Shown here piece by piece: positions 2,921-29,482 of a DNA stretch of 43,935 nt (position 1 is its first letter; each line of letters opens with the position of its first letter). The DNA lies in the NCBI RefSeq assembly GCF_017183135.1, contig NZ_JADDXW010000022.1:1-43935 (forward strand), given 5' to 3'. The position numbers were made by a program, and so were the translations under genes. The DNA is from Aurantimonas marina (GTDB lineage Bacteria > Pseudomonadota > Alphaproteobacteria > Rhizobiales > Rhizobiaceae). The notes under the pieces were generated by a model that saw only the letters and a list, made by a program, of their open reading frames with translations, did no database searches and was not told the origin of the DNA.

Positions 2921-2964
2921 GGGGAACTGATGTGATTCATTGGGCGAACAGGAGGATGTCCGCC

Positions 2965-8036: not shown

Positions 8037-8763
8037 GGGAAAGCTCCGTCAGGATGCGGTCGAGATCGGCGCGCCAACTGTTGGTCACCAGGATATGCGA
8101 TCCATGCAACTCGAGGCCGGCGATCAGCTTGGGATCGGCCGTGAAGTCGAGTCTCGGATTACCGCCCAGCACCTCGGCGAGACGCGTCCGGACGCGCTCC
8201 CTGTCTTCGTCATCGAGAGGACTGGCACTGACCGCCTGGAAGGTCGCCCCGTCCCGTGCAAGGTTGTGACGGGCATGGTCGGACAGACGGCCTATCTCCG
8301 CGACCAGCGAATCCAGGAATGCCTCCCGCAAGGCCTTGTCGTCCAATCTGGACACCAGGCGCCGGGCGATGTCGACGGCGAGCCGGGAGGCGTGCTCGGC
8401 CCAACTTGCGCGGCTCGCCTCCTCTTCTTGCGCAATTTCCGCCCTCGCCCTGTTCCGCAAGGCGCCTGCCTCCGCTTCGGCCTTCGCCAACACGTCCGCA
8501 CGGATTTTTTCGGCGGCGGCCTGCGCCTCCGCGACCATCCGCCCCCGCTCCTCGGCAAAGCCCGCTCGCGTCTTTTCGATCTCGGCGAGGGCCGCTCGCG
8601 CCTTGCCGCGCTCGGCCTCCGCCTCGGCCAGCGCCCCGGCCGCCGCCTTGCGCCGCGTTTCGATCATCGCGGCGAGCGGCCGCCAGAAGAAGCGCGCCAG
8701 GAGCCAGACCAGGATCAGGACGTTGACGGTCTGGATGCCCAACGTCCACCAGTCGATACGCAT
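8020..8763 (-). CDS. atpF: N-ATPase b subunit with long C-terminal extension
   Basis: A 247-residue peripheral-stalk subunit. It has one membrane segment near the N terminus ([20 protein letters not shown]), a long charged coiled coil (about 30-130), and a C-terminal domain of roughly 100 residues that is longer than in an ordinary b subunit (about 160 residues). The last 40 residues ([20 protein letters not shown], then an LDRILTELS segment) resemble the C-terminal part of delta/OSCP, which fits an operon lacking a delta gene; that resemblance is by eye. ATG 8763 is six bases after the atpE stop; a TTG at 8769 is also in frame. Confidence 0.9.
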
Positions 8764-8769
8764 GGGCAA

Positions 8770-9015
8770 TCAGAGCAACAAGGGGTTGGCGAAGAGCAGG
8801 AGCAGCGCCACGACCAGGCAATAGATCGCCATGGTCTCGATCATCGCCAGACCGACGAACAGCGTGCGGGAGATCGTGGCGGACGCTTCGGGCTGTCGGG
8901 CGATGGCGTCCATTGCTGCGGCGACCGAGCGCCCCTCGGCGAGGGCCGGTCCGATCGCACCGAAGGAGACCGCGATCACCGCGCCCAGAATGCTTGCGAG
9001 CGCTAGCCAATTCAT
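8770..9015 (-). CDS. atpE: N-ATPase c subunit (rotor ring), double-glutamate type
   Basis: An 81-residue hairpin of two membrane helices joined by the polar loop ARQPEA (residues 39-44). Helix 2 has the ion-binding Glu60 in MIETMAIY, with Thr61 and Tyr65 at positions used for sodium ligation in Ilyobacter c rings. Helix 1 carries a second carboxylate, Glu27 (PALAEGRS), while the position of the Ilyobacter Gln32 is a proline. Such a double-glutamate pattern is known from the Burkholderia pseudomallei N-ATPase ring, which was reported as proton-specific with 17 subunits. Ion use here is therefore open, with protons favoured. The start overlaps the atpB stop (ATGA). Confidence 0.95.
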   Translation of the reverse strand: MNWLALASILGAVIAVSFGAIGPALAEGRSVAAAMDAIARQPEASATISRTLFVGLAMIETMAIYCLVVALLLLFANPLLL

Positions 9016-9710
9016 TGTGGAGCCCTTTCCTTGGTCTTCGTGGGAGCCGGGCGTCCGTCGTTGACGGCTCCGGCGATGAACACCGTCGCGAGGACGGCGA
9101 AGATGTAGGCCTGGACGGCGCCGGTCAGGAGATCGAGCGCCATCAGTGGGATCGGGACGAGTAGCCCGGCAAGCGACAGGACGATGCCGATGACGAAAAC
9201 CCCGCTCATGATGTTGCCGAAGAGGCGGACGAGCAGGGAAAAGGTGCGTGTGATGCTCTCGACGAAGTTGAGCGGGATCATCAGGACACTCGGCGACGCG
9301 AAGCTTTTGAGATAGCCGCCGACGCCCCCTGCCCGGACGCCGAACCAGATCACCGCTAGGAAGACCAGCAGCGCCAACGCCGCGTCGGTTTCCAGATTGG
9401 CAGTCGGCGGCTCGACACCTGGCACCAGCGAGGTCCAGTTGGCGAAGAGAATGAAGACGAAGAGCGTACCGATAAAGGCGCGATAGTCATCGGGCTCTGC
9501 CTGCATCGTTTCGCGAATCTGCCCGTCGACCGTCACGACAACAAGTTCCAGCGCCGCCTGAAGCGACGACGGCACGAGCGACAGACGACGAGACACCGTC
9601 ATGCCACCGGCGGCGAGCAGCACCATCAACGCCCATGTTACGAGGATCGGCTCGGTGATCGGGACCGGGCCAAGCTGGAACATCGCTTCGGTGGTCAGCG
9701 GCGAGTTCAT
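9012..9710 (-). CDS. atpB: N-ATPase a subunit
   Basis: A 232-residue integral membrane stator subunit that forms the ion half-channels against the c ring. The essential arginine is Arg162 in SLLVRLFGNIMSG. At least five hydrophobic segments are visible (about 22-37, 78-95, 110-125, 158-185 and 190-222). The sequence starts MNSPLTTEAMFQLGPVPITE and matches bacterial a subunits in order and length. ATG 9710 overlaps the atpR stop and the gene's own stop overlaps atpE, so translation of the membrane sector is tightly coupled. Confidence 0.95.
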   Translation of the reverse strand: MNSPLTTEAMFQLGPVPITEPILVTWALMVLLAAGGMTVSRRLSLVPSSLQAALELVVVTVDGQIRETMQAEPDDYRAFIGTLFVFILFANWTSLVPGVEPPTANLETDAALALLVFLAVIWFGVRAGGVGGYLKSFASPSVLMIPLNFVESITRTFSLLVRLFGNIMSGVFVIGIVLSLAGLLVPIPLMALDLLTGAVQAYIFAVLATVFIAGAVNDGRPAPTKTKERAPQ

Positions 9711-10012
9711 TCGGCGAGCCTTCGGACACGGCGCATGACGAAGGCGCGGCCGCCGAGCAAGCCGATCGTCATCGCGAACAGGGCCGGCGCGCCGTGGAGG
9801 CTGGCCAGCGTGAGCGCTCCGACAAGCAGCGCGAATCGCGCGATCGCCACGGCCCCAGTCGGCCAAAAGGACATGCCGCTCGCGAGCCGCCTTGCCTGGT
9901 GCCAAAGGGCCGAGAAGTGGGCCAAGCCGAGGGCGAAGCCGGCCGCGAGGAAGCCGAAAAGTTCCATCGGCGTTCGCCAGTCCGTCATCTGGGCGGTATC
10001 GATCAGGGTCAT
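9707..10012 (-). CDS. atpR: N-ATPase accessory membrane protein AtpR
   Basis: A 101-residue protein with three hydrophobic segments (ELFGFLAAGFALGLAHFSAL, then VAIARFALLVGALTLASLHG, then APALFAMTIGLLGG). In N-ATPase operons a small protein of this size, AtpR, sits between atpQ and atpB. It has been proposed to help assemble the c ring, by analogy with AtpI. ATG 10012 was chosen because it overlaps the atpQ stop as ATGA, like the other junctions; the frame is open further upstream but that part is antisense-like. AtpR-specific identity is inferred from position, size and membrane topology. Confidence 0.88.
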   Translation of the reverse strand: MTLIDTAQMTDWRTPMELFGFLAAGFALGLAHFSALWHQARRLASGMSFWPTGAVAIARFALLVGALTLASLHGAPALFAMTIGLLGGRAFVMRRVRRLAE

Positions 10013-10316
10013 TGCCCATTCATCCATTTCCAGGCCGACCAGCAGCCGATGCCAAGACCGATCATCAGCAACGCCCCGGTGATCGTCAGCCCCGACTCGA
10101 ACATCCGGTCGAGCCAGCGACCCACGAAGAGGCCGATGAGGGTCGGCACCACGATGATCCAGCCGAGCACGCCGATCTGCGCCAACCGCTTCGCCACGGT
10201 CGGCTCGCCCTCCCGCAGCCATTGGCGGTGGCGCTCGCCTCTGACGCGGACGGTCTCAGCCAAGTGGTTGACCTGCTCTGGCTCGGCTGGCTTGTCCTGC
10301 TTATCGCGCCGCACGT

Positions 10317-10320
<4 letters not shown>
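10009..10320 (-). CDS. atpQ: N-ATPase accessory membrane protein AtpQ
   Basis: A 103-residue protein with a charged N-terminal half (NVRRDKQDKPAEPEQVNHLA) and two membrane helices (IGVLGWIIVVPTLIGLFVGR; GLTITGALLMIGLGIGCWSA). It resembles the AtpZ/AtpQ family annotated as ATPase gene 1 or putative Ca/Mg transporter. In N-type operons it lies after atpC. The role is not well established; assembly or magnesium supply has been suggested. The start overlaps the atpC stop and the stop overlaps atpR, both as ATGA. Confidence 0.88.
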
Positions 10321-12256
<1,936 letters not shown>

Positions 12257-12276
12257 CTACAGCGCACCAGCGGCCT

Positions 12277-12290
12277 TTGACTCCGATCAA
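12277..12290 (-). promoter_or_regulatory. FNR/FixK-type box upstream of the N-ATPase operon
   Basis: TTGATCGGAGTCAA (minus strand) fits TTGA-N6-TCAA exactly. It lies about 110 bases upstream of the atpD ATG, in the gap between atpD and the aminotransferase gene. If the box centre is at -41.5, transcription starts near 12242. A weak -10 candidate (TAGCCT or CTAGAG, 12249-12260) is in the right zone. Confidence 0.65.
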
Positions 12291-12364
12291 CGACTGCACC
12301 ATCCGCTTCCGCGGTGTCGTTTGGGAAGACGTACGCGGTGTTGCGGCGTTACGGCCGGAGGCGA

Positions 12365-13546
12365 TCAGGCCGCGGCGCTGGAACGAAGAAACCCATCCAT
12401 CCGCGCCAGCGCCTTGCGGATGTTGTCCTCGGAATTGGCATAGGACAGCCGGACATAACCCTCGCCAAGAATGCCGAAGTCCGGCCCGCCGATCAGCGCG
12501 ACTCCGGCCTCCTCCAGGAGGGCCGAGGCCAGCTTCTTGGCCTTCCAGCCGGTTCCGGAAATGTTCGGGAAGGCATAGAACGCGCCCTTCGGCGTCGCGC
12601 AGGTCACGCCCGGCAGGACATTCAGCCCCTCGACGACGACCCGGCGGCGGCGGTCGAAGGCGGCCATCATCGCCGCGACATCGTCCTGCGGCCCGTCGAT
12701 CGCCGCAATCCCGGCGAACTGGCTCGGCGCGTTGACACAGGACCAGCAATTGACCGCCAGCTTGCGGATCTTGTCGGTGAGCTGGTCGGGCCAGATCGAC
12801 CAGCCCATGCGCCAGCCGGTCATCGCCCAGGTCTTCGACCAGCCGTTCAGCACGATCAGCCGATCGCGGAGTTCCGGGAAGGTCAAAAGCGAGCAATGTT
12901 CCTCGCCGTCATAGGTCATGACGTCGTAGATCTCGTCCGACAGGATTGCCACGTCCGGATGATCGGCGAGGCCTTTCACCAGCTTCTCGATCTCGGCCCG
13001 CGGAGTCACACCGCCGGTCGGATTGGCCGGCGAGTTCAGGATCAGGAGCCGCGTCCGGGGGGTGATCAGCGACAGTGTTTCGTCGGCGGAGAAGGCAAAG
13101 CCGTTCTCCTCGCGCACCGGCACCGGCACCGGCGTCGCGCCGGTGTATTCGATCATCGAGCGATAGATCGGAAATCCCGGATCTGGGTAGAGGATCTCGG
13201 CGCCCGGCTCGCCGAACATGACGATCGCCGCATACATGGTCGGCTTGCCCCCCGGCAGGATCACGATGCTTTCCGGCGAGACCTCGACGCCGGTGGTCGT
13301 CAGCGTTCGCCGCGCCACCGCCTCGCGCGTCGCCAGCAGGCCGGTTGCCGGCGTATAGCCGTGGTGGCCGTCACGCAGCGCCTTGATCGCCGCTTCGACG
13401 ATATGATCCGGGGTGCGAAAATCCGGCTGGCCGATGCCGAGATTGATGATGTCCTTGCCCGCGGCGCTGAGCGCCGTCGCGCGGGCGAGCACAGCGAAGG
13501 CGTTCTCTTCGCCGATGCGGTCGAAGCCTGAAATCGTATGAAGCAT
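12365..13546 (-). CDS. Class I/II aminotransferase (aspartate aminotransferase-like)
   Basis: A 393-residue PLP-dependent enzyme of fold type I. The PLP lysine is Lys238 in NGWSKTWAMTGWR, the cofactor loops include NSPANPTGG and LSDEIYD, and the substrate-carboxylate arginine is Arg366 in GYVRLSYAN. Family I enzymes move an amino group between an amino acid and 2-oxoglutarate or pyruvate. It is the last gene of the catabolic operon, 147 bp after the iron alcohol dehydrogenase. In that context it probably deaminates the amino acid released at the end of the pathway (for example alanine or glycine); this is inference. The closest well-known relatives are AspAT-like enzymes of broad specificity. 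Confidence 0.9.
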   Translation of the reverse strand: MLHTISGFDRIGEENAFAVLARATALSAAGKDIINLGIGQPDFRTPDHIVEAAIKALRDGHHGYTPATGLLATREAVARRTLTTTGVEVSPESIVILPGGKPTMYAAIVMFGEPGAEILYPDPGFPIYRSMIEYTGATPVPVPVREENGFAFSADETLSLITPRTRLLILNSPANPTGGVTPRAEIEKLVKGLADHPDVAILSDEIYDVMTYDGEEHCSLLTFPELRDRLIVLNGWSKTWAMTGWRMGWSIWPDQLTDKIRKLAVNCWSCVNAPSQFAGIAAIDGPQDDVAAMMAAFDRRRRVVVEGLNVLPGVTCATPKGAFYAFPNISGTGWKAKKLASALLEEAGVALIGGPDFGILGEGYVRLSYANSEDNIRKALARMDGFLRSSAAA

Positions 13547-13693
13547 CGTGGTCTCTCGGAAGGGCGTGGCGCAAAACCGTGGCTCTCGACGCGCGTTCCC
13601 GCGCCGGGATTTGCGACCACTGCCTATGCCATGCCGGCGCCGAAGTCGAGTTGGAGCGCCTTGCTGCGGCAGGGACCGACGCTCCGCATCGCC

Positions 13694-14839
13694 TCACAGG
13701 CAGGCGCGGATCAGGTCGCGGGTGTTCTCGGCCGTCATCGTGACCGGATTGCCGCCGGTGCTGGGATCGCGCAGCGCCATCTCGGTCAGGCGATCGACGT
13801 CGGGATCGACGACGCCCAGCGACGTCAAATTGGCGGGGATGCCAAGCTCATCGGTGAGCTCGCCGACGAAGGCGTCGAAACCATCGAAACCGCCTGCGAT
13901 GCCAAGATAGGCCGCCGCCCGTTCGATCCGCGCTTCGATCGCCTCGCGGTTGAAGGTCAGCACCGGCCGCATGACGACGGCGTTGGTGGTGCCGTGATGG
14001 GTGTGATGGAGGGCGCCGATCGGATGGGAGATCGCATGGATAGCGCCGAGACCCTTCTGGAAGGCGGTCGCGCCCATGGCGGCGGCGGCCATCACCTGGG
14101 CGCGGGCCTCGACGTCGGAGCCGTCGCGGAAGGCGCGCGGCAGATAGTCCTTGACCAGGCGCAGGCCTTCCAGGGCGATCCCCTGGCTCATCGGATGAAA
14201 ATGCGGCGAGCAATAGGCCTCCAGGCAATGGGCGAAGGCGTCCATGCCGGTTCCGGCGGTGATCACCGGCGGCATGCCGACGGTGAGCTCGGGATCGCAG
14301 ATGACCATCTGCGGCATCAGCTTGGGATGGAAGATGATCTTCTTGGTCTCGGTCGCCGTGTCGGTCAGGACGCCAGCGCGGCCGACCTCCGAACCGGTTC
14401 CCGCCGTCGTCGGCACCGCGATGATGGGAGCGATCACGTCGGCCTCCGCACGCGTCCACCAGTCGCCGATGTCCTCCAGATCCCAGACCGGGATCGACTG
14501 CCCGGCCATCAGCGCGACGAGCTTGCCGAGATCGAGACCCGAGCCGCCGCCGAAGGCGATCACGCCGTCATGGCCGCCGGCGCGATAGGCCTTTACCCCG
14601 GCGTCGAGATTGGCGCCGTTCGGATTCGGGTCGACCTCGGCGAAGATCGCCCGACCCAGTCCCGCTTCCGCCATCAGGTCGAGCGCGCGGGCGGTGACCG
14701 GCAGCTTGGCCAGGCCCCGATCGGTGACCAGCAGCGGGCGCGCGATGCCGGCGGCCGCGCAGGCGTCGGCAAGTTCCGCGATGCGTCCGGCGCCGAAACG
14801 GATGGCGGTGGGATACGACCAATTGCCCCAGAGCTTCAT
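13694..14839 (-). CDS. Iron-containing (group III) alcohol dehydrogenase
   Basis: A 381-residue NAD(P)-dependent dehydrogenase. It has the N-terminal dinucleotide fold with FGGGSGLDLGK (96-106), the PTTAGTGSE motif (143-151) and the metal site Asp200, His204, His268, His282. These have the same spacing (4, 64, 14) as the FucO iron ligands (4, 63, 14). It would oxidise a primary alcohol to an aldehyde, which the adjacent aldehyde dehydrogenase (three bases upstream) could take further. Within this cluster the likely substrate is the hydroxyl of a glutamylated amino alcohol; the substrate itself is inferred. Confidence 0.92.
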   Translation of the reverse strand: MKLWGNWSYPTAIRFGAGRIAELADACAAAGIARPLLVTDRGLAKLPVTARALDLMAEAGLGRAIFAEVDPNPNGANLDAGVKAYRAGGHDGVIAFGGGSGLDLGKLVALMAGQSIPVWDLEDIGDWWTRAEADVIAPIIAVPTTAGTGSEVGRAGVLTDTATETKKIIFHPKLMPQMVICDPELTVGMPPVITAGTGMDAFAHCLEAYCSPHFHPMSQGIALEGLRLVKDYLPRAFRDGSDVEARAQVMAAAAMGATAFQKGLGAIHAISHPIGALHHTHHGTTNAVVMRPVLTFNREAIEARIERAAAYLGIAGGFDGFDAFVGELTDELGIPANLTSLGVVDPDVDRLTEMALRDPSTGGNPVTMTAENTRDLIRACL

Positions 14840-14842
14840 GGG

Positions 14843-16228
14843 TCAGGCTTTCTTCAGATGATAGGATTTCGGGCGGGTCACGCTGCGATAGCCGAGCGTC
14901 GACAGCGCCGCGCCGCGGCCGGTGTCCTTGCAGCCGGTCCAGCAGAGCGCCGGGTCGAGATAGTCGCAGCGGTTCATGTAGATCGTCCCGGTCTCGATCT
15001 GGCGGCCGATCCGCTCCGCCGCGTCGGCGTCGCGCGTCCACAGCGACGCGGTCAGGCCGAAGGGCGAATCGTTCATCAGCGCGATCGCTTCCTCATCGGA
15101 CGACACCCGCATGATGCCGACGACGGGGCCGAAGCTTTCGTCGCGCATGACGCGCATGGAATGATCGACGTCGATCAGGATCTGCGGGGCGAGATAGGCG
15201 GTGTCGCCAGTATCGGCCGGAAACAGCGTCGGATCGATCAGCGCCTTCGCACCGGCGTCGATCGCCTCCTTCACCTGGGTCCGAACTTCGCGCGCGAAGC
15301 GGATATTCGCCATCGGCCCGAGCGTCGTTTCGGGGTCAAGCGGATCGCCGAGACGATAGGCTTCGACGATCTTGACCGCCTTCTCGACGAAGGCGTCGAA
15401 AAGCTTGTCGGCGACATAGATCCGTTCGATACCGCAGCAGCATTGGCCGGAATTGAACATCGCGCCGTCGATCAGCGTCTCCACCGCCGCGTCGAGGTCC
15501 GCGTCCTCGCGGACATAGCCGGGGTCCTTGCCGCCGAGCTCCAGCCCGACGCCGGTGAAGGTGCCGGCCGTGGCGCGCTCGATCGCGCGCCCGCCGCCGA
15601 CCGAGCCGGTGAAGTTGACGAAGTCGAAGGCGCGTGCGCCGAGAAGCTCGGCGGTCGTCTCATGGGTGACGTGGATCGCCTGGAACAACCCGTCCGGCAG
15701 ACCGGCGGCTCGGAACGCTGCCGCAAACCGGTCTCCGGCGAGGATCGTCTGCGTCGAATGCTTCAGCACCACGGCGTTGCCGGCGGCCAGCGCCGGCACG
15801 ATCGTGTTGACGGCGGTCAGATATGGATAGTTCCACGGCGCGACGACCAGCACGAGGCCGAGCGGCTCATAGGCGATGAAGCGGCGAAAGGCTTTGGAAT
15901 CCTCGATCACCGTCGGCGCCAGCGCATCCTTCGCCAGCGCGGTCATGTGGAAGGCGCGTTCTTTCACGCCGCCGATCTCGCCGCCGTAGCGCACCGGCCT
16001 GCCCATCATCCGGGCGAGTTCGGGGACGATCTCGTTGTTCATCGCCTCCAGCGCCGAAATCGCCCGGTCGACGATCGCGACACGCTCGGCGAGCGGTCGC
16101 CCCGCCCAGTCTTTCTGGGCCGTTCGCGCGGCCTGAAGGCGAGGCGCCAGCGCCGCCGCGTCCTCGGTCTCCCGGCGCACCAGAACGCTGCCGTCGATCG
16201 GCGAGATACAGGTCAGTTCGCTCATCAT
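14843..16228 (-). CDS. NAD(P)-dependent aldehyde dehydrogenase
   Basis: A 461-residue aldehyde dehydrogenase superfamily member. Visible landmarks are APWNYPYLTAVNTIVPALAA (the 169-region Asn), FTGSVGGG (207-213), catalytic-base Glu230 in LELGGK, and the nucleophile in FNSGQCCC (Cys264 by the GQxC rule). It lacks the N-terminal extension of larger classes and resembles the short gamma-aminobutyraldehyde/succinate-semialdehyde type. It lies between the glutamine-synthetase-like gene (six-base gap) and the iron alcohol dehydrogenase (three-base gap), so the three are co-transcribed. The probable step is oxidation of a gamma-glutamylated amino aldehyde to the acid. Confidence 0.93.
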   Translation of the reverse strand: MMSELTCISPIDGSVLVRRETEDAAALAPRLQAARTAQKDWAGRPLAERVAIVDRAISALEAMNNEIVPELARMMGRPVRYGGEIGGVKERAFHMTALAKDALAPTVIEDSKAFRRFIAYEPLGLVLVVAPWNYPYLTAVNTIVPALAAGNAVVLKHSTQTILAGDRFAAAFRAAGLPDGLFQAIHVTHETTAELLGARAFDFVNFTGSVGGGRAIERATAGTFTGVGLELGGKDPGYVREDADLDAAVETLIDGAMFNSGQCCCGIERIYVADKLFDAFVEKAVKIVEAYRLGDPLDPETTLGPMANIRFAREVRTQVKEAIDAGAKALIDPTLFPADTGDTAYLAPQILIDVDHSMRVMRDESFGPVVGIMRVSSDEEAIALMNDSPFGLTASLWTRDADAAERIGRQIETGTIYMNRCDYLDPALCWTGCKDTGRGAALSTLGYRSVTRPKSYHLKKA

Positions 16229-16234
16229 AGCCTC

Positions 16235-17605
16235 TCAGGCGCGCTCGAAGCCGCGCCGGACTTCCCAGTCCGTCACATGGAAATCATATTCGTGCTGCTC
16301 CCACCGGGCGGCATGCACATAATGGTCGACGACCTCGTCGCCGAAGGCCCGTCTCAGCATCGGGGATTGGTCGAAAGCCTCGGTCGCGGCGCGAAGGGTC
16401 GAGGGGACATGCCGCATTCCCTCGCGCGCGCCATAGGCATCCCCCTCGAAGGCCGGTTCCAGCGCCAGCTTTTCCTCGATCCCGGCGAGCCCGGCGGCGA
16501 TCTGGCCGGCAAAGGCCAGATAGGGATTGAGGTCCGAGCCGCCGACCCTGCACTCGACCCTGACACCCTTGGTGCCGGCGCCGCAAAGGCGATAGCCGGC
16601 GGTGCGGTTGTCGAGGCTCCACACGGCCATGGTCGGCGCGAAGGTGCCGGCGACGAAGCGTTTGTAGGAATTGATGTTGGGCGCGAGCAGCAGGGTGACC
16701 TCGTCGGCGTATTGCAAGAGCCCGGCCAGATAGTGCCGCATCAGTTCCGACATGCCGTGCTCGGCGTCAGCGTCGTAGAAGGCGGGCTCGCCATCAAGGG
16801 TCTGAAGCGATTGATGGACATGGCTGGACGAGCCGGCGGAGGCATCGTTCCACTTCGCCATGAAGGTCGCCGCGCGGCCCTTGGCCCAGGCGATCTCCTT
16901 GACGCCGTTCTTGACGATGACGTGGTTGTCGGCGGCGGTCAGCGCATGATCGTATTTGACGTTGATCTCTTCCTGACCCGCCGAGGCCTCGCCCTTCGAG
17001 CATTCGACCGGGATGCCGGCGCCGTAGAGGCCATTGCGCACGGCCCGCATGACCTCCTCTTCCTTGGTCGTCTGGAGGATGTGGTAGTCCTCGTTATAGG
17101 CGCTGACGAGCGAGAGATCGCGATAGCCGGCGCGCTCGGCGGCCGCGAAACTGTCCTCGAACAGGAAGAATTCGAGCTCCGAGGCCATCGTCGGCCGCAG
17201 CCCGATCGCCTCCAGCCGGGCGATCTGGCGCTTCAGGATGGCGCGAGGCGAATGGGCGACCGGCGCGTGGGCGTCGTGGTCCTCCACGTCGCAGAGGACA
17301 AGCGCCGTAGCTTCCAGCCAGGGCACGCGGCGCAGCGTCGACAGGTCCGGCCGCATGACATAGTCGCCATAGCCCGCCGCCCAGCTCGTCGCCTTGTAAC
17401 CCTCGACCGTGTTCATTTCCATGTCGGTGGCGAGGAGATAGTTGCAGCCATGGGTCTCCTCCCAGGCGCTCTCGACGAAGAACGCCGCGTGGAAGCGCTT
17501 GCCCATCAGCCGCCCCTGCATGTCCACCTGGACAGCCAGAACCGTGTCGATTTCGCCGCTCTGAACGGCCTGTTTCAGTTCGTCGAAGGTCAGTTTGCCG
17601 GGCAT
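16235..17605 (-). CDS. Glutamine-synthetase-like gamma-glutamyl-amine ligase
   Basis: A 456-residue member of the glutamine synthetase superfamily. Metal and ATP residues are in place: SELEFF (Glu143, Glu145), GQEEIN (210-215), SSHVHQS (His262/264), DNRT with Arg334, and VECR (Glu351, Arg353). The flap that contains the ammonium-site Glu327 in E. coli GlnA (PGYEAP) reads AGTFAP here, putting Phe322 at that position, and the adenylylation motif NLYDLPP is absent. These changes are typical of relatives that attach glutamate to amines (PuuA, GlnT/GMAS, IpuC) rather than to ammonia. Clustering with a transporter, two dehydrogenases and an amidohydrolase supports such a catabolic ligase. The amine substrate is unknown. 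Confidence 0.88.
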   Translation of the reverse strand: MPGKLTFDELKQAVQSGEIDTVLAVQVDMQGRLMGKRFHAAFFVESAWEETHGCNYLLATDMEMNTVEGYKATSWAAGYGDYVMRPDLSTLRRVPWLEATALVLCDVEDHDAHAPVAHSPRAILKRQIARLEAIGLRPTMASELEFFLFEDSFAAAERAGYRDLSLVSAYNEDYHILQTTKEEEVMRAVRNGLYGAGIPVECSKGEASAGQEEINVKYDHALTAADNHVIVKNGVKEIAWAKGRAATFMAKWNDASAGSSSHVHQSLQTLDGEPAFYDADAEHGMSELMRHYLAGLLQYADEVTLLLAPNINSYKRFVAGTFAPTMAVWSLDNRTAGYRLCGAGTKGVRVECRVGGSDLNPYLAFAGQIAAGLAGIEEKLALEPAFEGDAYGAREGMRHVPSTLRAATEAFDQSPMLRRAFGDEVVDHYVHAARWEQHEYDFHVTDWEVRRGFERA

Positions 17606-17636
17606 CGGTGAGACATGTCGCAGCTGGAGTGAGGGA

Positions 17637-17664
17637 GCCGCGGCGCCGATCGTGGCGCCGCGGC
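17637..17664 (-). terminator. Perfect intercistronic hairpin after the TRAP binding-protein gene
   Basis: Arms GCCGCGGCGCC (17637-17647) and GGCGCCGCGGC (17654-17664) are fully complementary around a six-base loop. There is no T run. The hairpin sits between dctP and the glutamine-synthetase-like gene. It probably slows 3' decay or partly terminates, giving more binding protein than enzyme. Confidence 0.6.
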
Positions 17665-17686
17665 CGGGTGAGGTTCTTCCGACTCG

Positions 17687-18739
17687 CTACGTGTAGCGGT
17701 AGGGCTTGCCGGCCTTGGCCATCACGTCGTTGTACTCGCGGAAGATCTTCACCACACGGGCGGTACGCTCGCTGGTCGCGGCGATCTCGTCCCAGAACTT
17801 GATCGCCTCGGCTTCCACCGTCGCCCATTCCTCTTCCGGGATCGTGGTCAGCTTCAGTTTGTCGCCGTTGACACGCAGCTTGGCCTCGCCGCCCCAATAC
17901 CATTGCTGGCGGAAGTAGTGGGAGGAATCCATCGCCAGCTTCAACAGCGTCTTCAGGTGATCCGGCAGCTCGTCGTACTTCTCCTGGTTGGCGAAGAACG
18001 AGCCGCACCAGGCGCCGGAGATGTTGTTGGTGAGGAAGTAGTTGGTCACGTCGGCCCAGCCGACGGTGTAATCCTCGGTGATGCCGGACCAGGCGATACC
18101 ATCGAGTTCGCCGGTCTGCAGCGCCACTTCGACATCTTCCCAGGGCAGCGTCACGGGCACGATGCCGAAGCGGGTGAGGAAGCGGCCGGCCGTCGGGAAG
18201 GTGAAGATCCGCTTACCCTTCAGATCCTCGAGGCTGTTGATCGGCTCCTTGGTGGCGAAGTTGCAAGGATCCCATGAGCCGGCGGAGAGCCATTTGACGC
18301 CCTCGACCTCGCCATAGGCCTCTTCCCAGATTTCCTTCAGCCCGTACTGCTCGAACAGCACCGGCACGTCGAGGCTGTAGCGGGTCCCGAAGGGGAAATA
18401 GCCGCCGAACACCGAGATATCGACCGGCGCGGCGATCGAATCGTCGTCCGACTGGACCATGTCGATGGTGCCGCGCTGCATGGCGCGGAACAGTTCGCCC
18501 GTCGGCACGAGCTGATCGGCGAAGAACAGCTCGATTTCCATCTGGCCATTGGCCGCCTTGTTGAAGTCGTCGACCATGCCCTTGACGACGAATTCGGCCA
18601 GCGCCGGGCCGGCATAGGTCTGCAACCGCCAGCGGATCGGCGCGCTTTGGGCGTGAACGGCCGGGGCGGCGAGGGTCGAGGCACCGGCCGCCGCCGTCAC
18701 GACGCCCGCCTTCTTGAGGAAATCGCGTCTGTTCGTCAT
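17687..18739 (-). CDS. dctP: TRAP transporter substrate-binding protein (DctP family), Tat-exported
   Basis: A 350-residue periplasmic binding protein. The N terminus TNRRDFLKKAG is a twin-arginine signal, with cleavage likely after AVHA (residue 30), so the protein would be exported folded. The TRAP signature region reads LEDLKGKRIFTFPTAGRF. By eye the arginine that binds carboxylates in most DctP proteins (LKGLKIR type) is replaced by Phe179. ELDGIAWSGITEDYTVGWAD marks the second half of the pocket. A start further upstream would destroy the signal peptide, so ATG 18739 is chosen. It follows dctM by 79 bases and precedes a strong hairpin. Substrate unknown; a neutral or cationic amine would fit with the neighbours. 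Confidence 0.92.
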   Translation of the reverse strand: MTNRRDFLKKAGVVTAAAGASTLAAPAVHAQSAPIRWRLQTYAGPALAEFVVKGMVDDFNKAANGQMEIELFFADQLVPTGELFRAMQRGTIDMVQSDDDSIAAPVDISVFGGYFPFGTRYSLDVPVLFEQYGLKEIWEEAYGEVEGVKWLSAGSWDPCNFATKEPINSLEDLKGKRIFTFPTAGRFLTRFGIVPVTLPWEDVEVALQTGELDGIAWSGITEDYTVGWADVTNYFLTNNISGAWCGSFFANQEKYDELPDHLKTLLKLAMDSSHYFRQQWYWGGEAKLRVNGDKLKLTTIPEEEWATVEAEAIKFWDEIAATSERTARVVKIFREYNDVMAKAGKPYRYT

Positions 18740-18818
18740 GTCGTCGCTTCCTTCTGTTGCGGCCCGGTCAGGCCGGTTGCACGGGTTTCCGCCCGCCTGT
18801 TTTCGCCGGCCAGCGTGG

Positions 18819-20150
18819 TCAGCGGCCATTGGCGTAAGTGAATTCCGGCAGCCACAGCGCGATCTGCGGGAAGGCGGTGACGATGCCGAGGCCGACGATC
18901 ATGATGCCGACGAACGGCCAGACCGAACGGTAGATATCGGACAGCGAGATTTCGGGCGGCGCCATCGCCCGCATCAGGAAGAGATTGTAGCCGAAGGGCG
19001 GCGTCATATAGGCGATCTGGCAGGTGATCGTGTAGAGGACGCCGTACCAGACGAGGTCGAAGCCGAGGGCGCCGACCAGCGGAATGTAGAGCGGCGCCAC
19101 GATGACCAGCATGGCCGTGTCGTCGAGGAACATGCCAAGCAGGATGTAGGAAATCTGCATCATGATGAGAATCTGCCAGGGCCCAAGCCCCAGATCCTCG
19201 GTGAAGAAGCTGTCCAGCGCTCGCGACGCGCCGACACCGTCGAAGATACTGCCGAAGGCGAGCGCCGCCATGATGATCCAGAAGAACATGCAGGAGATGA
19301 GGAGCGTCTTTCGCACCGTCTCGTGCAGCACATGAAGGGTCAACCGACGCTTGACCAAGGCCGCGATCATCGCCGCCACCGCGCCGACGGCGGAGCTTTC
19401 CACCAGGCTGGTGACACCCATGACGAAAAGGCCGGTCATGGCGAAGAAGATGAACAGCGGCAGGATGCCGGCCTTGAGCAGACCGATCTTCTGCGCGCGG
19501 GTGATGTTCTCGCGCTCTTCCAGCGGCAGGACCGGGCCCAGCCTGGGATTCGCCCGGCAGCGGAGGTAGATATAGACGATGAACATCGCCGCGATCATCA
19601 GCCCCGGAAAGACGCCGGCGAGCCAGAGCTGGCCGACCGGCTGGCGGGCGATCATGCCGTAAAGAACGAGGACGACGCTCGGCGGCACCAGGATGCCCAG
19701 GGACGACCCCGCCTGGATAACCCCCGTCACCATCACCTTGTCGTAGCCGCGCCGCAGCAGTTCCGGCAGCGCGATCGTCGCGCCGATCGCCATGCCGGCA
19801 ACCGAGAGCCCGTTCATGGCCGAGATCATCACCATCAGCCCGATCGTCCCGATGGCGAGGCCGCCGGCCGTGCCGCCCATCCAGACGTGGAACATGTGGT
19901 AGAGATCGTCGGCGATACCGCTCTCCGACAACATGTAGCCCATGAAGATGAACAGCGGCAGCGTGAGCAGCGGATACCATTTCATCAGCTTCATCACGGC
20001 CGAGAAACCCATCTCCGAACCGCCGTCGCCATAAAGAAAAAGCGCGGTCACCACCGCCACGCCACCGATGACGCCGAAGACGCGCTGGCCGGTCAAAAGC
20101 ATGACCATCATGCTGGCGAACATGACGATGGCGATCATCTCGTAGCTCAC
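18819..20150 (-). CDS. dctM: TRAP transporter large permease (DctM)
   Basis: A 443-residue membrane protein of the TRAP large subunit family (12-13 segments), which uses a sodium gradient to take up the substrate delivered by DctP. Recognisable blocks are LLTLPLFIFMGYMLSESGIA, then ATIALPELLRRGYDKVMVTG followed by QAGSSLGILVPPS, and ITCQIAYMTPPFGYNLFLMR. The start is GTG 20150, which overlaps the dctQ stop (GTGA). An extension of the frame to 20690 is the shadow of dctQ. Confidence 0.95.
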   Translation of the reverse strand: MSYEMIAIVMFASMMVMLLTGQRVFGVIGGVAVVTALFLYGDGGSEMGFSAVMKLMKWYPLLTLPLFIFMGYMLSESGIADDLYHMFHVWMGGTAGGLAIGTIGLMVMISAMNGLSVAGMAIGATIALPELLRRGYDKVMVTGVIQAGSSLGILVPPSVVLVLYGMIARQPVGQLWLAGVFPGLMIAAMFIVYIYLRCRANPRLGPVLPLEERENITRAQKIGLLKAGILPLFIFFAMTGLFVMGVTSLVESSAVGAVAAMIAALVKRRLTLHVLHETVRKTLLISCMFFWIIMAALAFGSIFDGVGASRALDSFFTEDLGLGPWQILIMMQISYILLGMFLDDTAMLVIVAPLYIPLVGALGFDLVWYGVLYTITCQIAYMTPPFGYNLFLMRAMAPPEISLSDIYRSVWPFVGIMIVGLGIVTAFPQIALWLPEFTYANGR

Positions 20151-20737
20151 GAGGCCGCCCCCCGCTCGGCTTCGTCCGGTTCCCCGCCACGCGGGTGATC
20201 GAGCTCGTCCTCGCGCGGCAGCCGCTCGACCCCGGGCAACACAATTCCCCGCGCTTCGGCGACGTTGCGGATCAGCATCGCAATGGCCTGAAGCAGCATC
20301 AGCACGATGCCGCAGACCATGACGATCTTGATCGGCGCCATGTAGGGCCGCCAGGACGAATAGCTCCGCTCGCTGTATTCCAGCGCATAGGCCGTGGATG
20401 AGATGCCTCCGTAGAGGAGGATGCCGAGATAGAAGATCAGGAGAAGGATCGTGACCGCGTCGACACTTGCCTGCGTGCGTGGTGACCAGCGCCCGTAAGC
20501 AAGGTCCATGCGGACATGGGCGCCCATCTTGAGCGAGTAGCCACCGCCGACCAGGAAATAGGCCACCATCGCGAACTGGGCCATCTCCAGCGTCCACAGC
20601 GATGGCAGGAAGAAGGTCTTGGTGATGGTCGAATAAAACAGGATGCCGATCATCGCGAAGATCGAATACATCGTGACGAGGCCCACCCAACCGCTCACCC
20701 GGTCGATGAATCGGACATAGGCGGCCAGCCGCCTCAT
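20147..20737 (-). CDS. dctQ: TRAP transporter small permease (DctQ)
   Basis: A 196-residue four-helix membrane protein (VGLVTMYSIFAMIGILFYST and TLEMAQFAMVAYFLVGGGYS; two more helices around residues 85-115 and 130-155), followed by a charged cytoplasmic tail. It is the small partner of DctM. It overlaps both neighbours: its ATG overlaps the stop of the amidohydrolase gene and its stop overlaps the GTG of dctM. Transporter and hydrolase are therefore translated from one coupled message. Confidence 0.93.
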   Translation of the reverse strand: MRRLAAYVRFIDRVSGWVGLVTMYSIFAMIGILFYSTITKTFFLPSLWTLEMAQFAMVAYFLVGGGYSLKMGAHVRMDLAYGRWSPRTQASVDAVTILLLIFYLGILLYGGISSTAYALEYSERSYSSWRPYMAPIKIVMVCGIVLMLLQAIAMLIRNVAEARGIVLPGVERLPREDELDHPRGGEPDEAERGAAS

Positions 20738-21540
20738 AGCGCCGACCCCTTTGGCGCGTCGGCCGTGAGCGAGGCGTGGGCGCGCGAGACCCAGGCGGTC
20801 AGGCGTTCCGCAATATCGCCCACATCCTCGGGAGTAGCGATCAGGTCGTTGCGGATCTCGATCATCGCATTGGCCATCCCATGCGGAACCGCGTGGGCCG
20901 CCAGCGTGTGCATGACCCCGTCGGCCGGACCGTATGGCTCGTTGCGGCGTATGTCGAGCGAGCCGTCTGCGGCATCGAGGATGGCGTCGGCGAGGCGCCG
21001 GTCACTGTCGTGCAGGATACCGATTTCCACGGACCGCCGCTCGCCGGCATAGATCGGCGTGAAGGAATGGATCGTCAAAAGCACGGGGTTGGCATGGGTG
21101 GCGCGATGCCGCGCGACGGCCTGCGCCAGCGTCCGCTCGAACGGCCGATAGAAGCGTTCGACCCGGTCGGCCCGCGCCGCCGCGCTCAACCCCGTATTAC
21201 CGGGAATCTCGTGGATTTCACTGCGGGCGGGAATGGCGTCGCCGGCATCCGGCGGCCGGTTGCAGTCATAGACGAGGCGCGACACGGTCTGCGCGACCAG
21301 CGGCGCGTCGAACATCTCCGACAGATGCCGTGCCACCGCCAGTGCTCCCGGGTCCCAGGCGGCGTGGCTGGCTTTCGTCGCCGCGCCGATGCCGAGATCG
21401 CCGAACTCGGCGGGAATCGCGTTCGAGGCATGTTCGCAGACCAGCAGAATGGCGCCGGCGCCGTCCGGATTGATCACCTCGACCGTTTGGGTGCGCGAGC
21501 CGTCGGACGGTTCTTCCAGCGTTGCGCTCCCTTCGGACAA
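20734..21540 (-). CDS. N-formylglutamate amidohydrolase family protein
   Basis: A 268-residue zinc amidohydrolase (FGase family, carboxypeptidase-like fold). The metal-binding motif LVCEHASNAIP includes Glu36 and His37; LTIHSFTP supplies a further histidine; MANAMIEIRNDLI is the conserved C-terminal block. Classical members hydrolyse N-formylglutamate in histidine breakdown, but no hut genes are nearby. As first gene of an operon with a glutamine-synthetase-like ligase it may instead release glutamate from a gamma-glutamyl or N-acyl product; that is inference. The start appears to be TTG 21540, preceded by AGAGG seven bases upstream. An ATG start is not available near it. Confidence 0.85.
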   Translation of the reverse strand: MSEGSATLEEPSDGSRTQTVEVINPDGAGAILLVCEHASNAIPAEFGDLGIGAATKASHAAWDPGALAVARHLSEMFDAPLVAQTVSRLVYDCNRPPDAGDAIPARSEIHEIPGNTGLSAAARADRVERFYRPFERTLAQAVARHRATHANPVLLTIHSFTPIYAGERRSVEIGILHDSDRRLADAILDAADGSLDIRRNEPYGPADGVMHTLAAHAVPHGMANAMIEIRNDLIATPEDVGDIAERLTAWVSRAHASLTADAPKGSAL

Positions 21541-21559
21541 GGCGTTACCTCTCGACTGG

Positions 21560-21581
21560 CTCTGAAACGATCATTACAGAG
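21560..21581. promoter_or_regulatory. 22-bp palindromic operator, probably for the RpiR-type regulator
   Basis: CTCTGAAACGATC on one strand faces CTCTGTAATGATC on the other, sharing the central GATC, so 18 of 22 positions are symmetric. The core TGAAA-N6-TTACA resembles operators of RpiR/HexR-type repressors. It lies between the two divergent genes and covers the -10 of the catabolic operon. Confidence 0.65.
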
Positions 21582-21597
21582 TTGCCTACCATGTCAA
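21571..21597 (-). promoter_or_regulatory. Predicted promoter of the catabolic operon
   Basis: On the minus strand a consensus -35 TTGACA (21597-21592) is followed after 15 bases by TAATGA (21576-21571), or after 17 bases by ATGATC. The -10 zone lies inside the palindrome at 21560-21581, so binding there should block transcription of the amidohydrolase-TRAP-ligase operon. Confidence 0.55.
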
Positions 21598-21674
21598 GCA
21601 CGACCGGCCGCGAAATTCGTCGGCGGCGCGGCACCATGTTAGGAGGCCGGCGCGGATGGACGGGGAGCTTTTGA

Positions 21675-22550
21675 ATGACGACGAGCGATGACCGGACGGT
21701 CGCGGAGCTGATCCGCGCCGCGTTTCCCGATCTGACCCGCGCCGAGCGGCAGTTGGCCGACGCCATCCTCGAGGACTATCCGATCTCCGGGCTCGGCAGC
21801 ATCACCGCCCTGTCGGAAAGCTCCGGCGTCTCGACGCCGACGGTGCTGCGCATGGCGCGCAAGCTCGGCTTCGACGGCTTCACGCATTTTCAGGCGAGCC
21901 TGCGCGGCGAACTGAAGATGATGATTTCCGATCCCGTCGCCAGGCGCGAGCATTGGACCGACGAGCTACCGCACGCCCATATCCTCAACCGCTTCGCCGA
22001 GGCGGTATCCGACAATCTGCGCAAGACACTGCAGCGGATGGACGTGGAGACCTTCGACGCCGCGACGGCCCTTCTGGCGGACCCCGCTCGGGCGGTCTTC
22101 GTCGTCGGCGGCCGGGTCACCCGCTCGCTCGCCGACTATTTCTTCAGCCTGCTGCAGGTGATCCGCGACGGCGCGCATCTGTTGCCGCCCAACGCCAATA
22201 TCTGGCCGCACAGCGTTTTGGGCATGAAGGAGGGCGACGTCCTCCTGATCTTCGACATCAGGCGCTACGAGCGCGAACTCCTGAGCCTCGCCAGGATGGC
22301 CCGCGCGCGCGGCGTGACCATCGTCTTGATGACCGACCAGTGGGGCTCGCCGATCACCACCCAGGCGGCGCACGCCTTTCATGCCCGGATCGAGGTGCCG
22401 TCGGCCTGGGATTCGACCGTCGTCCTGACCTACATGGTGGAGGCGTTGCTGGCCGGCATCCAGGCGCTGCACTGGGACACCGCGCGGCGGCGGATGAACG
22501 AGCTGGAAGGCCTGCTCGACGAAACCGCGATGTTCAAGAAGTTTACGTGA
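21675..22550 (+). CDS. MurR/RpiR family transcriptional regulator
   Basis: A 291-residue regulator with an N-terminal helix-turn-helix domain (about 1-77; ERQLADAILEDYPISGLGSI, then SESSGVSTPTVLRMARKLGF) and a C-terminal SIS domain (about 120-265; VFVVGGRVTRSLADYFF and VTIVLMTDQWGSPITTQAAH). RpiR proteins sense phosphosugars or other metabolites through the SIS domain and usually repress neighbouring catabolic genes. It is transcribed divergently from the TRAP/ligase operon with a palindrome between them, so it is the likely local repressor. GGGGAG precedes the ATG by seven bases. The effector is unknown. Confidence 0.93.
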   Translation: MTTSDDRTVAELIRAAFPDLTRAERQLADAILEDYPISGLGSITALSESSGVSTPTVLRMARKLGFDGFTHFQASLRGELKMMISDPVARREHWTDELPHAHILNRFAEAVSDNLRKTLQRMDVETFDAATALLADPARAVFVVGGRVTRSLADYFFSLLQVIRDGAHLLPPNANIWPHSVLGMKEGDVLLIFDIRRYERELLSLARMARARGVTIVLMTDQWGSPITTQAAHAFHARIEVPSAWDSTVVLTYMVEALLAGIQALHWDTARRRMNELEGLLDETAMFKKFT

Positions 22551-22580
22551 GGGAGAGGCGATGGGCGGGTTGACCGGCCT

Positions 22581-23405
22581 CTATCCCCTACCCTCGCGCT
22601 GGCCGCGGCGGCGGGCCTGAACGATCTCGGCGAGGATCGACAGGGCGATCTCTTCCGGCGTGATCGCGCCGAGATCGAGACCCGCCGGCGCCTTGACCCG
22701 GGCGAGCGCCAAAGGGTCGGCACCCTCGGCGGCCAGCGTCTGGCGCAGCGCCGTCATCTTGCGCCGGCTGCCGACGAAGGCGTGGGTGTCGGCCGCGATC
22801 CCCAGCGCGGCTGTCAGCGCCGCCTTGTCGCCCCGACCTTGCGTCGAGACAACGAGGAAGCGCCGGGCTTCCTGAAGACCCTCCACCGCGAAGCCGTCGA
22901 TGACGCGGTCGGCGTCCGGCGTTGAGGGCCGATCCTCCGCCGGGGCCGCGAGGGTGACATGGAAGCCGAGCGGCCGCGCCTGACTCGCCAGCGCCATCGC
23001 AACGGGACTGGCGCCAAGGATCACCAGCGAGGGTTGCGGCAGGACGGGCTCGATGAAGATGTCCATGGTGCCCTCGCTCGGGCACATGTTCTTGGCGAAG
23101 CGCACGCCCTCGCGGCTTTCGCCGGGGCTGACGCCGAGTTCGGCGAGGAGGTTTTCCGGCTGCACCGAGACGAGCCGCGCCACCCCGTCGGCGAGCGCCT
23201 CGCGCGCCGCCTTCAGCACCGCGCCACGGGCGCAGCCGCCGCCGATCCAGCCGGCCGCGATAGTGCCGTCCGCACGGATCACCGCCTTGGCGCCGGCCTT
23301 GGCGGCGGTCACCGAAACGGTCCGCACGACGGTCGCCAGAACGAAGGCTTCCTCGGCCGCCTTCAGACGGGATATCAGGTCGATCACGTCGACATGGGCG
23401 GTCAT
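22581..23405 (-). CDS. coxF: XdhC/CoxF family molybdenum-hydroxylase maturation protein
   Basis: A 274-residue protein of the XdhC/CoxI family that loads or sulfurates the molybdenum cofactor of xanthine dehydrogenase-type enzymes. The N-terminal part has GWIGGGCARGAVLKAAREAL, with the conserved cysteine. The C-terminal part has a Rossmann-like fold (PSLVILGASPVAMALASQAR). I start it at ATG 23405 (MTAHVDVIDL); the open frame runs further up but into a low-quality sequence. It is the last gene of the cox operon, 13 bp after coxE, and convergent with the RpiR gene. In Afipia (Oligotropha) carboxidovorans coxF occupies this position after coxE. Confidence 0.87.
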   Translation of the reverse strand: MTAHVDVIDLISRLKAAEEAFVLATVVRTVSVTAAKAGAKAVIRADGTIAAGWIGGGCARGAVLKAAREALADGVARLVSVQPENLLAELGVSPGESREGVRFAKNMCPSEGTMDIFIEPVLPQPSLVILGASPVAMALASQARPLGFHVTLAAPAEDRPSTPDADRVIDGFAVEGLQEARRFLVVSTQGRGDKAALTAALGIAADTHAFVGSRRKMTALRQTLAAEGADPLALARVKAPAGLDLGAITPEEIALSILAEIVQARRRGQREGRG

Positions 23406-23418
23406 CGCAAGGGGTCCG

Positions 23419-24630
23419 TCACAGTTTCGCCAGATAGGGTTCGAGATCGGCAAGGCTTTGCAGCGTGTGTGCCGGCGCATAGAGGTCGACATGGGGCAGC
23501 GCCGCCTTGATGCCTGCGGCCTCCGGCGCGTAGCCCTCCCAGCCGATCATCGGGTTCAGCCAGACGATCCGGCGGCAGCGCCGGGCAAGCCGCGCCATCT
23601 CGCGGCCAAGCAGCGCCGCGTCGCCGGTCTCGTAGCCGTCGGACACGATCATGACGCAGGTCCGCGAATGGATCACCCGCGCCGCGTGCCAGCGGTTGAA
23701 GGTCTGAAGGCTCTCGCCGATCCGCGTGCCGCCGCCGGCGCCTTGCGCCATCATCGACAGCCGGTCGAGCGCGCGGACGGGGTTCTTCTCCTTCATCGCG
23801 TCGGAGACATGGGCGAGCCTCGTGTGGAACAGGAAGGCGTCGGCCTCGCGAAACTCGTCCAGAACGCCGTGGATGAAGCGGAGAAAGACGCCGGTGTAGA
23901 GGCTCATCGAGCCCGACGCGTCGAGCAGCATGACCAGCCGCAGCGGTTTTTCCTTGCGGCGGCGCTTCACAAGGGAAATCGGCACGCCGCCATGGCTGAT
24001 ATTGCGGTGGATGGTGCGGCGAAGGTCGAGCCGGTAGCCACGCCGGCGGGCGAGATCACGGCGGGTGAGCCGCGTGCGCATGGTCCGCGCCAGCCGCGCG
24101 GCAATGTCGTGGGCCGCCGCGATCTGCGCCGGGTCGGCGATCTTGCGAAAATCGGTTTCGGCGAGATTGTCGGCGCGTGATGCGCCTTCCATGCGGCCGA
24201 CGCCGTCGCGGTCCTCGCCGGGCTCGTCGCCGGCGGGCATCTGGTCCGGCGCCGTGTCGCCGCCGGAATTGGCCGCGTCGTTGCGCAGATTCTTCAGCGA
24301 CGGGCTGTTGGCGGCTTTGGTCGAACCGGAGATCGCCGAGCGCGAGCGCACCCGCTTGCCGAGCCAGAAGGCGTCGAACAGGCCGTCGAACACCTCCCAG
24401 TCGGCCTTGCGCGCCGCGAACAGATGCTTGAAGGCCGCCCGCAGAAGAGCGGGCCGGTCACCATAGCCGGACGCCAGCAACATCGCCGCATCCTGGCCCT
24501 CGCTGAGGCCGACGGCAAAGGCATTGTCGCGCAGGGTGCGCAGAAAGGCCGCAAGCTTGTCGGCAACGCGCGCTGCCGCCATTTCCGGCTCGACCGGCAG
24601 AAGGGCGGGCGCGGGGCCGGCGGCGCTCAC
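23419..24630 (-). CDS. coxE: CoxE, VWA-domain CO dehydrogenase maturation protein
   Basis: A 403-residue protein with a C-terminal von Willebrand factor A domain. The MIDAS motif is DASGSM (237-242), preceded by LRLVML. CoxE acts with the AAA+ protein CoxD in building the CuSMoO2 active site of aerobic CO dehydrogenase. A charged low-complexity region (about 100-165) separates a helical N-terminal domain from the VWA domain. The start is GTG 24630, overlapping the coxD stop (GTGA). Confidence 0.92.
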   Translation of the reverse strand: MSAAGPAPALLPVEPEMAAARVADKLAAFLRTLRDNAFAVGLSEGQDAAMLLASGYGDRPALLRAAFKHLFAARKADWEVFDGLFDAFWLGKRVRSRSAISGSTKAANSPSLKNLRNDAANSGGDTAPDQMPAGDEPGEDRDGVGRMEGASRADNLAETDFRKIADPAQIAAAHDIAARLARTMRTRLTRRDLARRRGYRLDLRRTIHRNISHGGVPISLVKRRRKEKPLRLVMLLDASGSMSLYTGVFLRFIHGVLDEFREADAFLFHTRLAHVSDAMKEKNPVRALDRLSMMAQGAGGGTRIGESLQTFNRWHAARVIHSRTCVMIVSDGYETGDAALLGREMARLARRCRRIVWLNPMIGWEGYAPEAAGIKAALPHVDLYAPAHTLQSLADLEPYLAKL

Positions 24631-25511
24631 GCCACCTTCCCCAGCAGGCGCTCCGTCACTTCCCGCGACAGCCGCGCCTTGTCCTCATGGGTCTTCAACA
24701 GGCACATCAGCGTTTCGTGCACGGTCTCCGGCCGATCGGCGAGATCGCGCACGTCGAGCCCGACCAGCGCCGCCGCCCAGTCCAGCGTCTCGGCGACACC
24801 GGGAACCTTGCGCAGATCCTCCTTGCGGATGCCCTCGACCATCCGCGCGATCTGCAGCGACAGCGAGGCGCCGGCGCCCTCAACCCGCGCCATGATGATG
24901 CGGGCCTCGCGATCGACGTGGGGATAGTCGACATAGTGATAAAGGCAGCGCCGGCGCAGCGCGTCCGACAGCTCGCGCGTGCCGTTCGAGGTCAGCACGA
25001 CATGGGGGATCGAGACGGCGGTGATGGTGCCGAGTTCAGGGATCGAGACCTGAAAGTCCGACAGGAGCTCGAGCAGAAACGCCTCGAACTCCTCGTCGGC
25101 GCGGTCGACCTCGTCGATCAACAGGATCGGCGGCTTTTCCCGGCGGATCGCGGCGAGGAGCGGGCGCTCCAGGAGATATTTTTCCGAGAATATCTGGTCC
25201 TCGATCTCGCCCGCCTTGCCGCCCGCGTCAACCTGATGCGCCTGGATCGCCAGCAATTGCCGCTGGTAGTTCCATTCGTAGAGCGCCGCCGACTGGTCGA
25301 GGCCCTCGTAGCATTGCAGCCGGATCAGCTCGGTCGAATGCACGGCCGCCAGCGCCTTGGCCACCTCGGTCTTGCCGACGCCCGCCTCGCCTTCCAGAAG
25401 CAGCGGACGCTTCAGAAGGTCCATCAGCGAGATCGCCACCGCCAGTTCGCCATCGGCGATATAGCCCGCCGCGGCGAGGCGCTCGGCGATCTGGTCGCGG
25501 GACAGACTCAT
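24627..25511 (-). CDS. coxD: CoxD, MoxR-type AAA+ ATPase
   Basis: A 294-residue AAA+ ATPase. Walker A is GEAGVGKT (41-48), Walker B is LLIDEVD (130-136), and the sensor region is VVLTSNGTRELSDALRRRCL. CoxD is a membrane-associated chaperone-like ATPase required to insert sulfur and copper into the CoxL cofactor; it pairs with the VWA protein CoxE as MoxR proteins generally do. It lies 87 bp after coxL, the largest gap in the operon. Confidence 0.93.
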   Translation of the reverse strand: MSLSRDQIAERLAAAGYIADGELAVAISLMDLLKRPLLLEGEAGVGKTEVAKALAAVHSTELIRLQCYEGLDQSAALYEWNYQRQLLAIQAHQVDAGGKAGEIEDQIFSEKYLLERPLLAAIRREKPPILLIDEVDRADEEFEAFLLELLSDFQVSIPELGTITAVSIPHVVLTSNGTRELSDALRRRCLYHYVDYPHVDREARIIMARVEGAGASLSLQIARMVEGIRKEDLRKVPGVAETLDWAAALVGLDVRDLADRPETVHETLMCLLKTHEDKARLSREVTERLLGKVA

Positions 25512-25598
25512 GGCCGGTGCTCCGGTCTCCCCCGCGGCGCCGGCCGCGCGCTTATCGCGACGCGCGACGCCGCCATGCCTTGCCCTCTCACGACAGGC

Positions 25599-28516: not shown

Positions 28517-28526
28517 CGTTTCCCCC

Positions 28527-29390: not shown

Positions 29391-29482
29391 CGTTCCCCCC
29401 TTGTCCATTTTCGCGATAGGCGCGGGCATTTGCGGCGAGGCTGTTCCGCGGCTCGCGCGGCGGCAAGACAGCCGACCTCAAC

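Follow-up and report, generated by a model that had tools for sequence, protein, structure and literature searches.

A probable gamma-glutamyl-type ethanolamine-utilisation operon with a lineage-specific aminotransferase neighbour in Aurantimonas marina

Described ethanolamine pathways and the Aurantimonas locus

Ethanolamine is a membrane-lipid head group. As described in PMC10132767, Phaeobacter sp. MED193 carries a single operon with the locus-tag order RpiR-GGAH-EtoV-EtoW-EtoX-ETAGA-GAADDH-GETADH; the amidohydrolase, EtoX, the ligase and both dehydrogenases are raised on phosphorylethanolamine, EtoX binds ethanolamine with a Kd of 7.9 uM, and the paper points to earlier work on Chromohalobacter salexigens and Agrobacterium tumefaciens. 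The same gamma-glutamyl chemistry, yielding glycine and glutamate, is described for Streptomyces (PMC6529630, PMC9397018), and ligase activity was shown for Streptomyces GlnA4 (PMC6529630). Here, we analyse a stretch of 43,935 nucleotides of Aurantimonas marina (contig NZ_JADDXW010000022.1; "the window") and suggest that the gene cluster at 12365..22550 is very probably a gamma-glutamyl (EtoVWX) type operon for the import of ethanolamine and its breakdown to glycine and glutamate. We favor this reading because (i) the TRAP binding protein shares 71% identity with an ethanolamine-binding homolog, (ii) the gene order is that of Phaeobacter, (iii) this order recurs in 31 of 80 loci, (iv) the ligase scores below the glutamine synthetase (GS) cut-offs, and (v) EutB, the ethanolamine ammonia-lyase, has no match in the genome, which is 99% complete, in a search with a positive E. 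coli control.

All nine open reading frames (ORFs) of the cluster are intact and open, and the ORF check and Pfam bear out the positions and families given by a first-pass annotation of this DNA. The plus-strand gene encodes an RpiR-family regulator (21675..22550; Pfam HTH_6 4.4e-14 and SIS 9.7e-19) and is divergent from a minus-strand series that begins with an FGase-fold amidohydrolase (20734..21540, TTG start; FGase 1.1e-43), by homology a gamma-glutamylglycine amidohydrolase. It is followed by the small TRAP permease DctQ (20147..20737; EtoV-like, DctQ 8.9e-22), the large permease DctM (18819..20150; EtoW-like, DctM 5.4e-68) and the EtoX-like, probably ethanolamine-binding DctP protein (17687..18739; DctP 5.1e-22), and then by a GS-like amine ligase (16235..17605; Gln-synt_C 2.3e-99), by homology an ethanolamine gamma-glutamylase. 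The last two genes of the core encode an aldehyde dehydrogenase (ALDH; 14843..16228; Aldedh 6.2e-114) and an iron-containing alcohol dehydrogenase (ADH; 13694..14839; Fe-ADH 8.4e-47), to which position would assign the oxidation of the gamma-glutamyl-aldehyde and of gamma-glutamylethanolamide, respectively. A class I/II aminotransferase (12365..13546, minus strand; Aminotran_1_2 2.5e-63) lies beyond them as a neighbour of the operon and not as a conserved member. There is a 4-bp overlap between FGase and DctQ, and another between DctQ and DctM if DctM starts at GTG 20150 (ATG 20138 is the other candidate start), and the subsequent gaps from DctM through ADH are about 79, 81, 6 and 3 bp. With overlaps or gaps of no more than 81 bp between them, the seven genes that run from FGase to Fe-ADH form a tight unit, whereas the aminotransferase, 147 bp from the ADH gene, is the loosest member.

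From RpiR and the amidohydrolase through TRAP Q-M-P, ligase, ALDH and ADH, these are eight gene kinds in the identical order to that given for Phaeobacter in PMC10132767, with a binding protein homologous to the ethanolamine-binding Csal_0678. The aminotransferase beyond the final gene sets the window apart from the Phaeobacter operon; the main text of that paper contains neither the word aminotransferase nor transaminase. The Streptomyces coelicolor GlnA4 pathway, as described in PMC6529630, is alike in its ligase, two dehydrogenases and a last step of formylglutamate-amidohydrolase type giving glycine and glutamate; its regulator, EpuRI, is unlike the RpiR of the window, and TRAP occurs in the text of that paper only as the name of an instrument. 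The first-pass annotation knew of no described TRAP/FGase/Fe-ADH set, an impression that was wrong given the published Phaeobacter operon and the Streptomyces chemistry: the gene system has already been described, and the window is a further, ordinary example. Among the matches listed in a literature search outside which most subscription papers lie, no paper on the Aurantimonas operon or its aminotransferase was recognised. As generally described, the isopropylamine (Ipu) pathway likewise has a gamma-glutamyl intermediate that passes through an amino-alcohol stage. It starts with an oxygenation, and Pfam finds no oxygenase among the nine proteins of the window.

In the mechanism that we suggest, the TRAP transporter would take up ethanolamine, which the GS-like ligase would join to glutamate at the expense of ATP to give gamma-glutamylethanolamide. 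Fe-ADH and then ALDH would oxidise this compound to gamma-glutamylglycine, from which the FGase-fold amidohydrolase would free glycine and return glutamate. In the absence of an inducer, the divergently encoded RpiR protein probably sits on a palindrome that covers the -10 box and so keeps the operon repressed. The enzymatic steps in the Aurantimonas window, the repression and the operator are all what we infer. The general scheme of the first-pass annotation, in which an amino alcohol is imported, glutamylated at its amine, oxidised twice and finally split by the amidohydrolase into amino acid and glutamate, is supported.

Ligase, amidohydrolase and binding protein

The ligase reaches 252.3 bits against TIGR00653 (GlnA; cut-off 429.15) and 237 bits against type III glutamine synthetase (cut-off 470). 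Its nearest solved relatives, 5dm3 (E 1.2e-188) and 11zs, are both named only as glutamine synthetases. The genome contains five GS-family genes; among the three others that were scored (L085 left out), one passes the GlnA cut-off and one the type III cut-off, L081 attaining 670 bits for GlnA. In an alignment with L081, the ligase retains the general catalytic, metal-site and glutamate-site motifs, and the DGSS and GYEAP motifs are replaced by EMNT and GTFAP, at positions that we take to touch the ammonia site of glutamine synthetase. Two of the remaining GS paralogs in the genome are likewise without the GYEAP glutamate, and this change is for that reason better read as a mark of "not GlnA" than of ethanolamine. 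The first-pass annotation had considered that the ligase could be a normal, ammonia-using glutamine synthetase, in which case the cluster would serve some other compound. Membership in Gln-synt_C and the retained metal and glutamate sites are in keeping with such an enzyme; family score and the two altered motifs set the ligase apart from normal glutamine synthetases, and we regard this alternative as extremely unlikely.

Alternatively, the cluster could encode a polyamine pathway of the Puu type, to whose PuuA and PuuC enzymes the GS-like ligase and the aldehyde dehydrogenase are similar in kind. The scores point away from these enzymes, with 214.1 bits for the ligase against NF045547 (gamma-glutamylputrescine synthetase; cut-off 650) and 222 bits against a cut-off of 850 for PuuC; moreover, Pfam detects no amine oxidase among the nine proteins, and an alcohol dehydrogenase would have no obvious role for a diamine. 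We give this possibility next to no weight. The ALDH reaches the cut-off of none of the 25 NCBIfam families listed for it, and none of 14 NCBIfam matches to Fe-ADH is at or above cut-off.

The only match of the FGase protein in the PDB at E<=0.001 is 2odf (E 4.3e-78), i.e. Atu2144, to which it is homologous and which links the locus to A. tumefaciens C58. N-formylglutamate deformylase (HutG) was considered for this protein and rejected, the TIGR02017 score being 29 bits against a cut-off of 278.75.

The binding protein scores above the TIGR01409 cut-off for a Tat signal and matches the solved structures 4uab/4xf5 with E=1.5e-163, the next solved relative following at 9.5e-18. Counted from the printed alignment, 233 of 326 residues (71%) are identical to Csal_0678 (PDB 4UAB), tying the window to the Csal_0678 region of C. 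salexigens. 4UAB is described as Csal_0678 in complex with ethanolamine, which is held by Glu220 (PMC12410723), and the same protein as being without the carboxylate-binding Arg (PMC4646407). The 80 loci supply 46 binding-protein orthologs that align over at least 270 residues, and in all of them the Glu presumed to hold the ligand, probably the counterpart of Glu220, is conserved (46/46). At the usual carboxylate-Arg position, as it would map through the 5cm6 alignment, 39 of these orthologs have Phe and seven Tyr; the window protein has Phe and hence is of the Csal_0678 type without this Arg. The substrate, left open by the first-pass annotation, is most probably ethanolamine to judge from the 71% identical binding protein.

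Conservation and predicted regulation of the operon

A ligase scan of genome contigs gave 436 relatives, of which the best 80 loci were kept, so that the sample leans to close relatives. All seven core genes are present in the same order and orientation in 31 of the 80, and a divergent RpiR gene, proposed as the regulator in the first-pass annotation and supported by Pfam, in 30 of these 31. Many of the other loci end at contig edges, and of the 48 loci that span 21.3 kb or more, 26 have the full seven-gene order. The same gene order, which had been proposed as a thing to look for in other genomes, thus recurs in this sample, and because the loci were fetched with the ligase alone, the grouping is not a chance one. 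The nearest loci are from Aurantimonas, with ligases 96-98% identical. In nine of the 80 loci (L013, at 8340-9890, L020, L025, L042, L049, L057, L066, L069 and L078), a permease of the amino-acid-permease family, assigned by Pfam on L013 only, stands between the FGase and ligase genes, and a TRAP binding protein was not detected. These loci are Rhizobium-type, none being A. tumefaciens C58 itself, and the permease in place of the TRAP genes is a transporter exchange within a conserved pathway. In seven further loci (L029, L033, L040, L065, L070, L071 and L079), the ligase homologs are 70-72% identical and most of the remaining core genes were not detected in the vicinity.

Between FGase and RpiR lies a predicted operator palindrome, TCTGTAATGATCGTTTCAGA (21561..21580, minus strand), with one mismatch to TCTGAAA-N6-TTTCAGA. 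A predicted sigma-70-type promoter, TTGACA-16-AATGAT (21570..21597, minus strand), has its second hexamer inside this palindrome. It is the only promoter-like match in 12000-22700 (one found, 1.4 expected in shuffles), and since as many are expected by chance, we argue for the promoter from its position and not from its score. Among 55 FGase-RpiR gaps (the window and 54 loci), TCTGAAA-N4-8-TTTCAGA with at most three mismatches is found in 35, compared to 4.67 expected from shuffles, although the pattern was first spotted by eye in some of the same gaps and the loci are related. The predicted operator appears to go with the type of RpiR: at a split picked after the data were seen, it is found in 34 of 44 loci with an RpiR at least 47% identical to that of the window and in none of ten at 41% or less (Fisher p 8e-6). 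The ten loci with a distant RpiR (33-41%; L007, L010, L012, L017, L021, L023, L024, L028, L032 and L073), which have no such pattern within three mismatches, suggest that the regulator changed together with its site.

The aminotransferase and the flanking genes

The first-pass annotation proposed that the amino acid released is transaminated by the neighbouring aminotransferase, and a broader or different amino-alcohol pathway of this kind, e.g. for L-alaninol, is an alternative that we consider improbable. In its favor, the window and two Aurantimonas loci, L001 and L002, have the aminotransferase after the ADH gene on the same strand, with no terminator-like site detected in the 147-bp gap of the window. 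The folding of this gap is no better than that of shuffled sequences (z 0.56). L003, also from Aurantimonas, ends just past the ADH gene. Against it, L001 and L002 are the only two of 51 loci with an ADH gene and at least 2 kb beyond it to have this aminotransferase there, leaving 49 without, and glycine and glutamate, once released, need no dedicated transaminase.

The distribution of orthologs argues in the same direction. Aminotransferase orthologs with at least 74% identity are present in 16 of 40 genomes searched, that of the window included, and binding-protein orthologs with at least 64% over nearly the full length in 18 (G011 has a partial match in addition); the two lie within 10 kb of each other only in G000 and G004, the latter probably being the same genome as L001. 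In G006, the aminotransferase is near a contig end and the binding protein on another contig, which is compatible with adjacency. In G005, G007 and G009, the aminotransferase is present and a close binding protein is absent. Its neighbours in G005, and by BLAST likewise in G007, include genes for an FAA hydrolase, an alpha/beta hydrolase, ornithine-cyclodeaminase-like and PALP-family enzymes, and a relative (31%) of the window's DctM; in G014 and G017, an acetyltransferase adjoins the aminotransferase. From the neighbours scanned, which were only some of them, no clear function emerged. Since the aminotransferase is found in two of 51 loci and some genomes that carry an ortholog of it lack a close ortholog of the binding protein, transamination is not a core step: among the loci examined, the aminotransferase stands beside the operon only in Aurantimonas and is a lineage-specific neighbour, which the pathway may use but does not require. 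That the Aurantimonas operon captured this gene and also serves other amino alcohols (e.g. alaninol), the released amino acid being converted to keto acids, seems to us unlikely.

Several points weigh against the assignment of the operon to ethanolamine. Csal_0678, the close relative of the binding protein, was also solved as 4xf5, with an amino alcohol other than ethanolamine as the ligand; specificity may for this reason be wider, which would also suit a pathway of the L-alaninol type. Ten of the 44 loci with a similar RpiR are without the operator motif. Finally, the C. salexigens pathway is an in-silico prediction according to PMC6529630, yet is referred to as demonstrated in PMC10132767.

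On one side, the cluster is flanked by a minus-strand set resembling coxMSLDEF (22581-29429) for FAD-binding medium, Fe-S small and molybdopterin large subunits, an AAA ATPase, a CoxE-type VWA protein and an XdhC/CoxI protein. The large subunit contains AYRCSFR, the motif that marks form I aerobic CO dehydrogenase. Just upstream of this set, a minus-strand gene (29545-30903) encodes MHYT repeats and a LytTR DNA-binding domain and is possibly its sensor-regulator. On the other side, directly after the aminotransferase, lies an N-ATPase operon (5638-12250, minus strand), i.e. a second, AtpR-containing F-type ATPase, with matches to beta, epsilon, ATPase_gene1, AtpR, a, b, alpha and gamma. The plus strand further out carries two transposases, one of IS66 (979-2643) and another of IS type that is spread over two frames, a helix-turn-helix part (2905-3513) and DDE_3 (3534-4025).

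An ethanolamine operon of the EtoVWX type in Aurantimonas would extend to a further genus the known route by which marine and soil bacteria use the head group of phosphatidylethanolamine without an ammonia-lyase. With it come a predicted RpiR operator that can be tested and a caution against reading a neighbouring aminotransferase as a step of the pathway.

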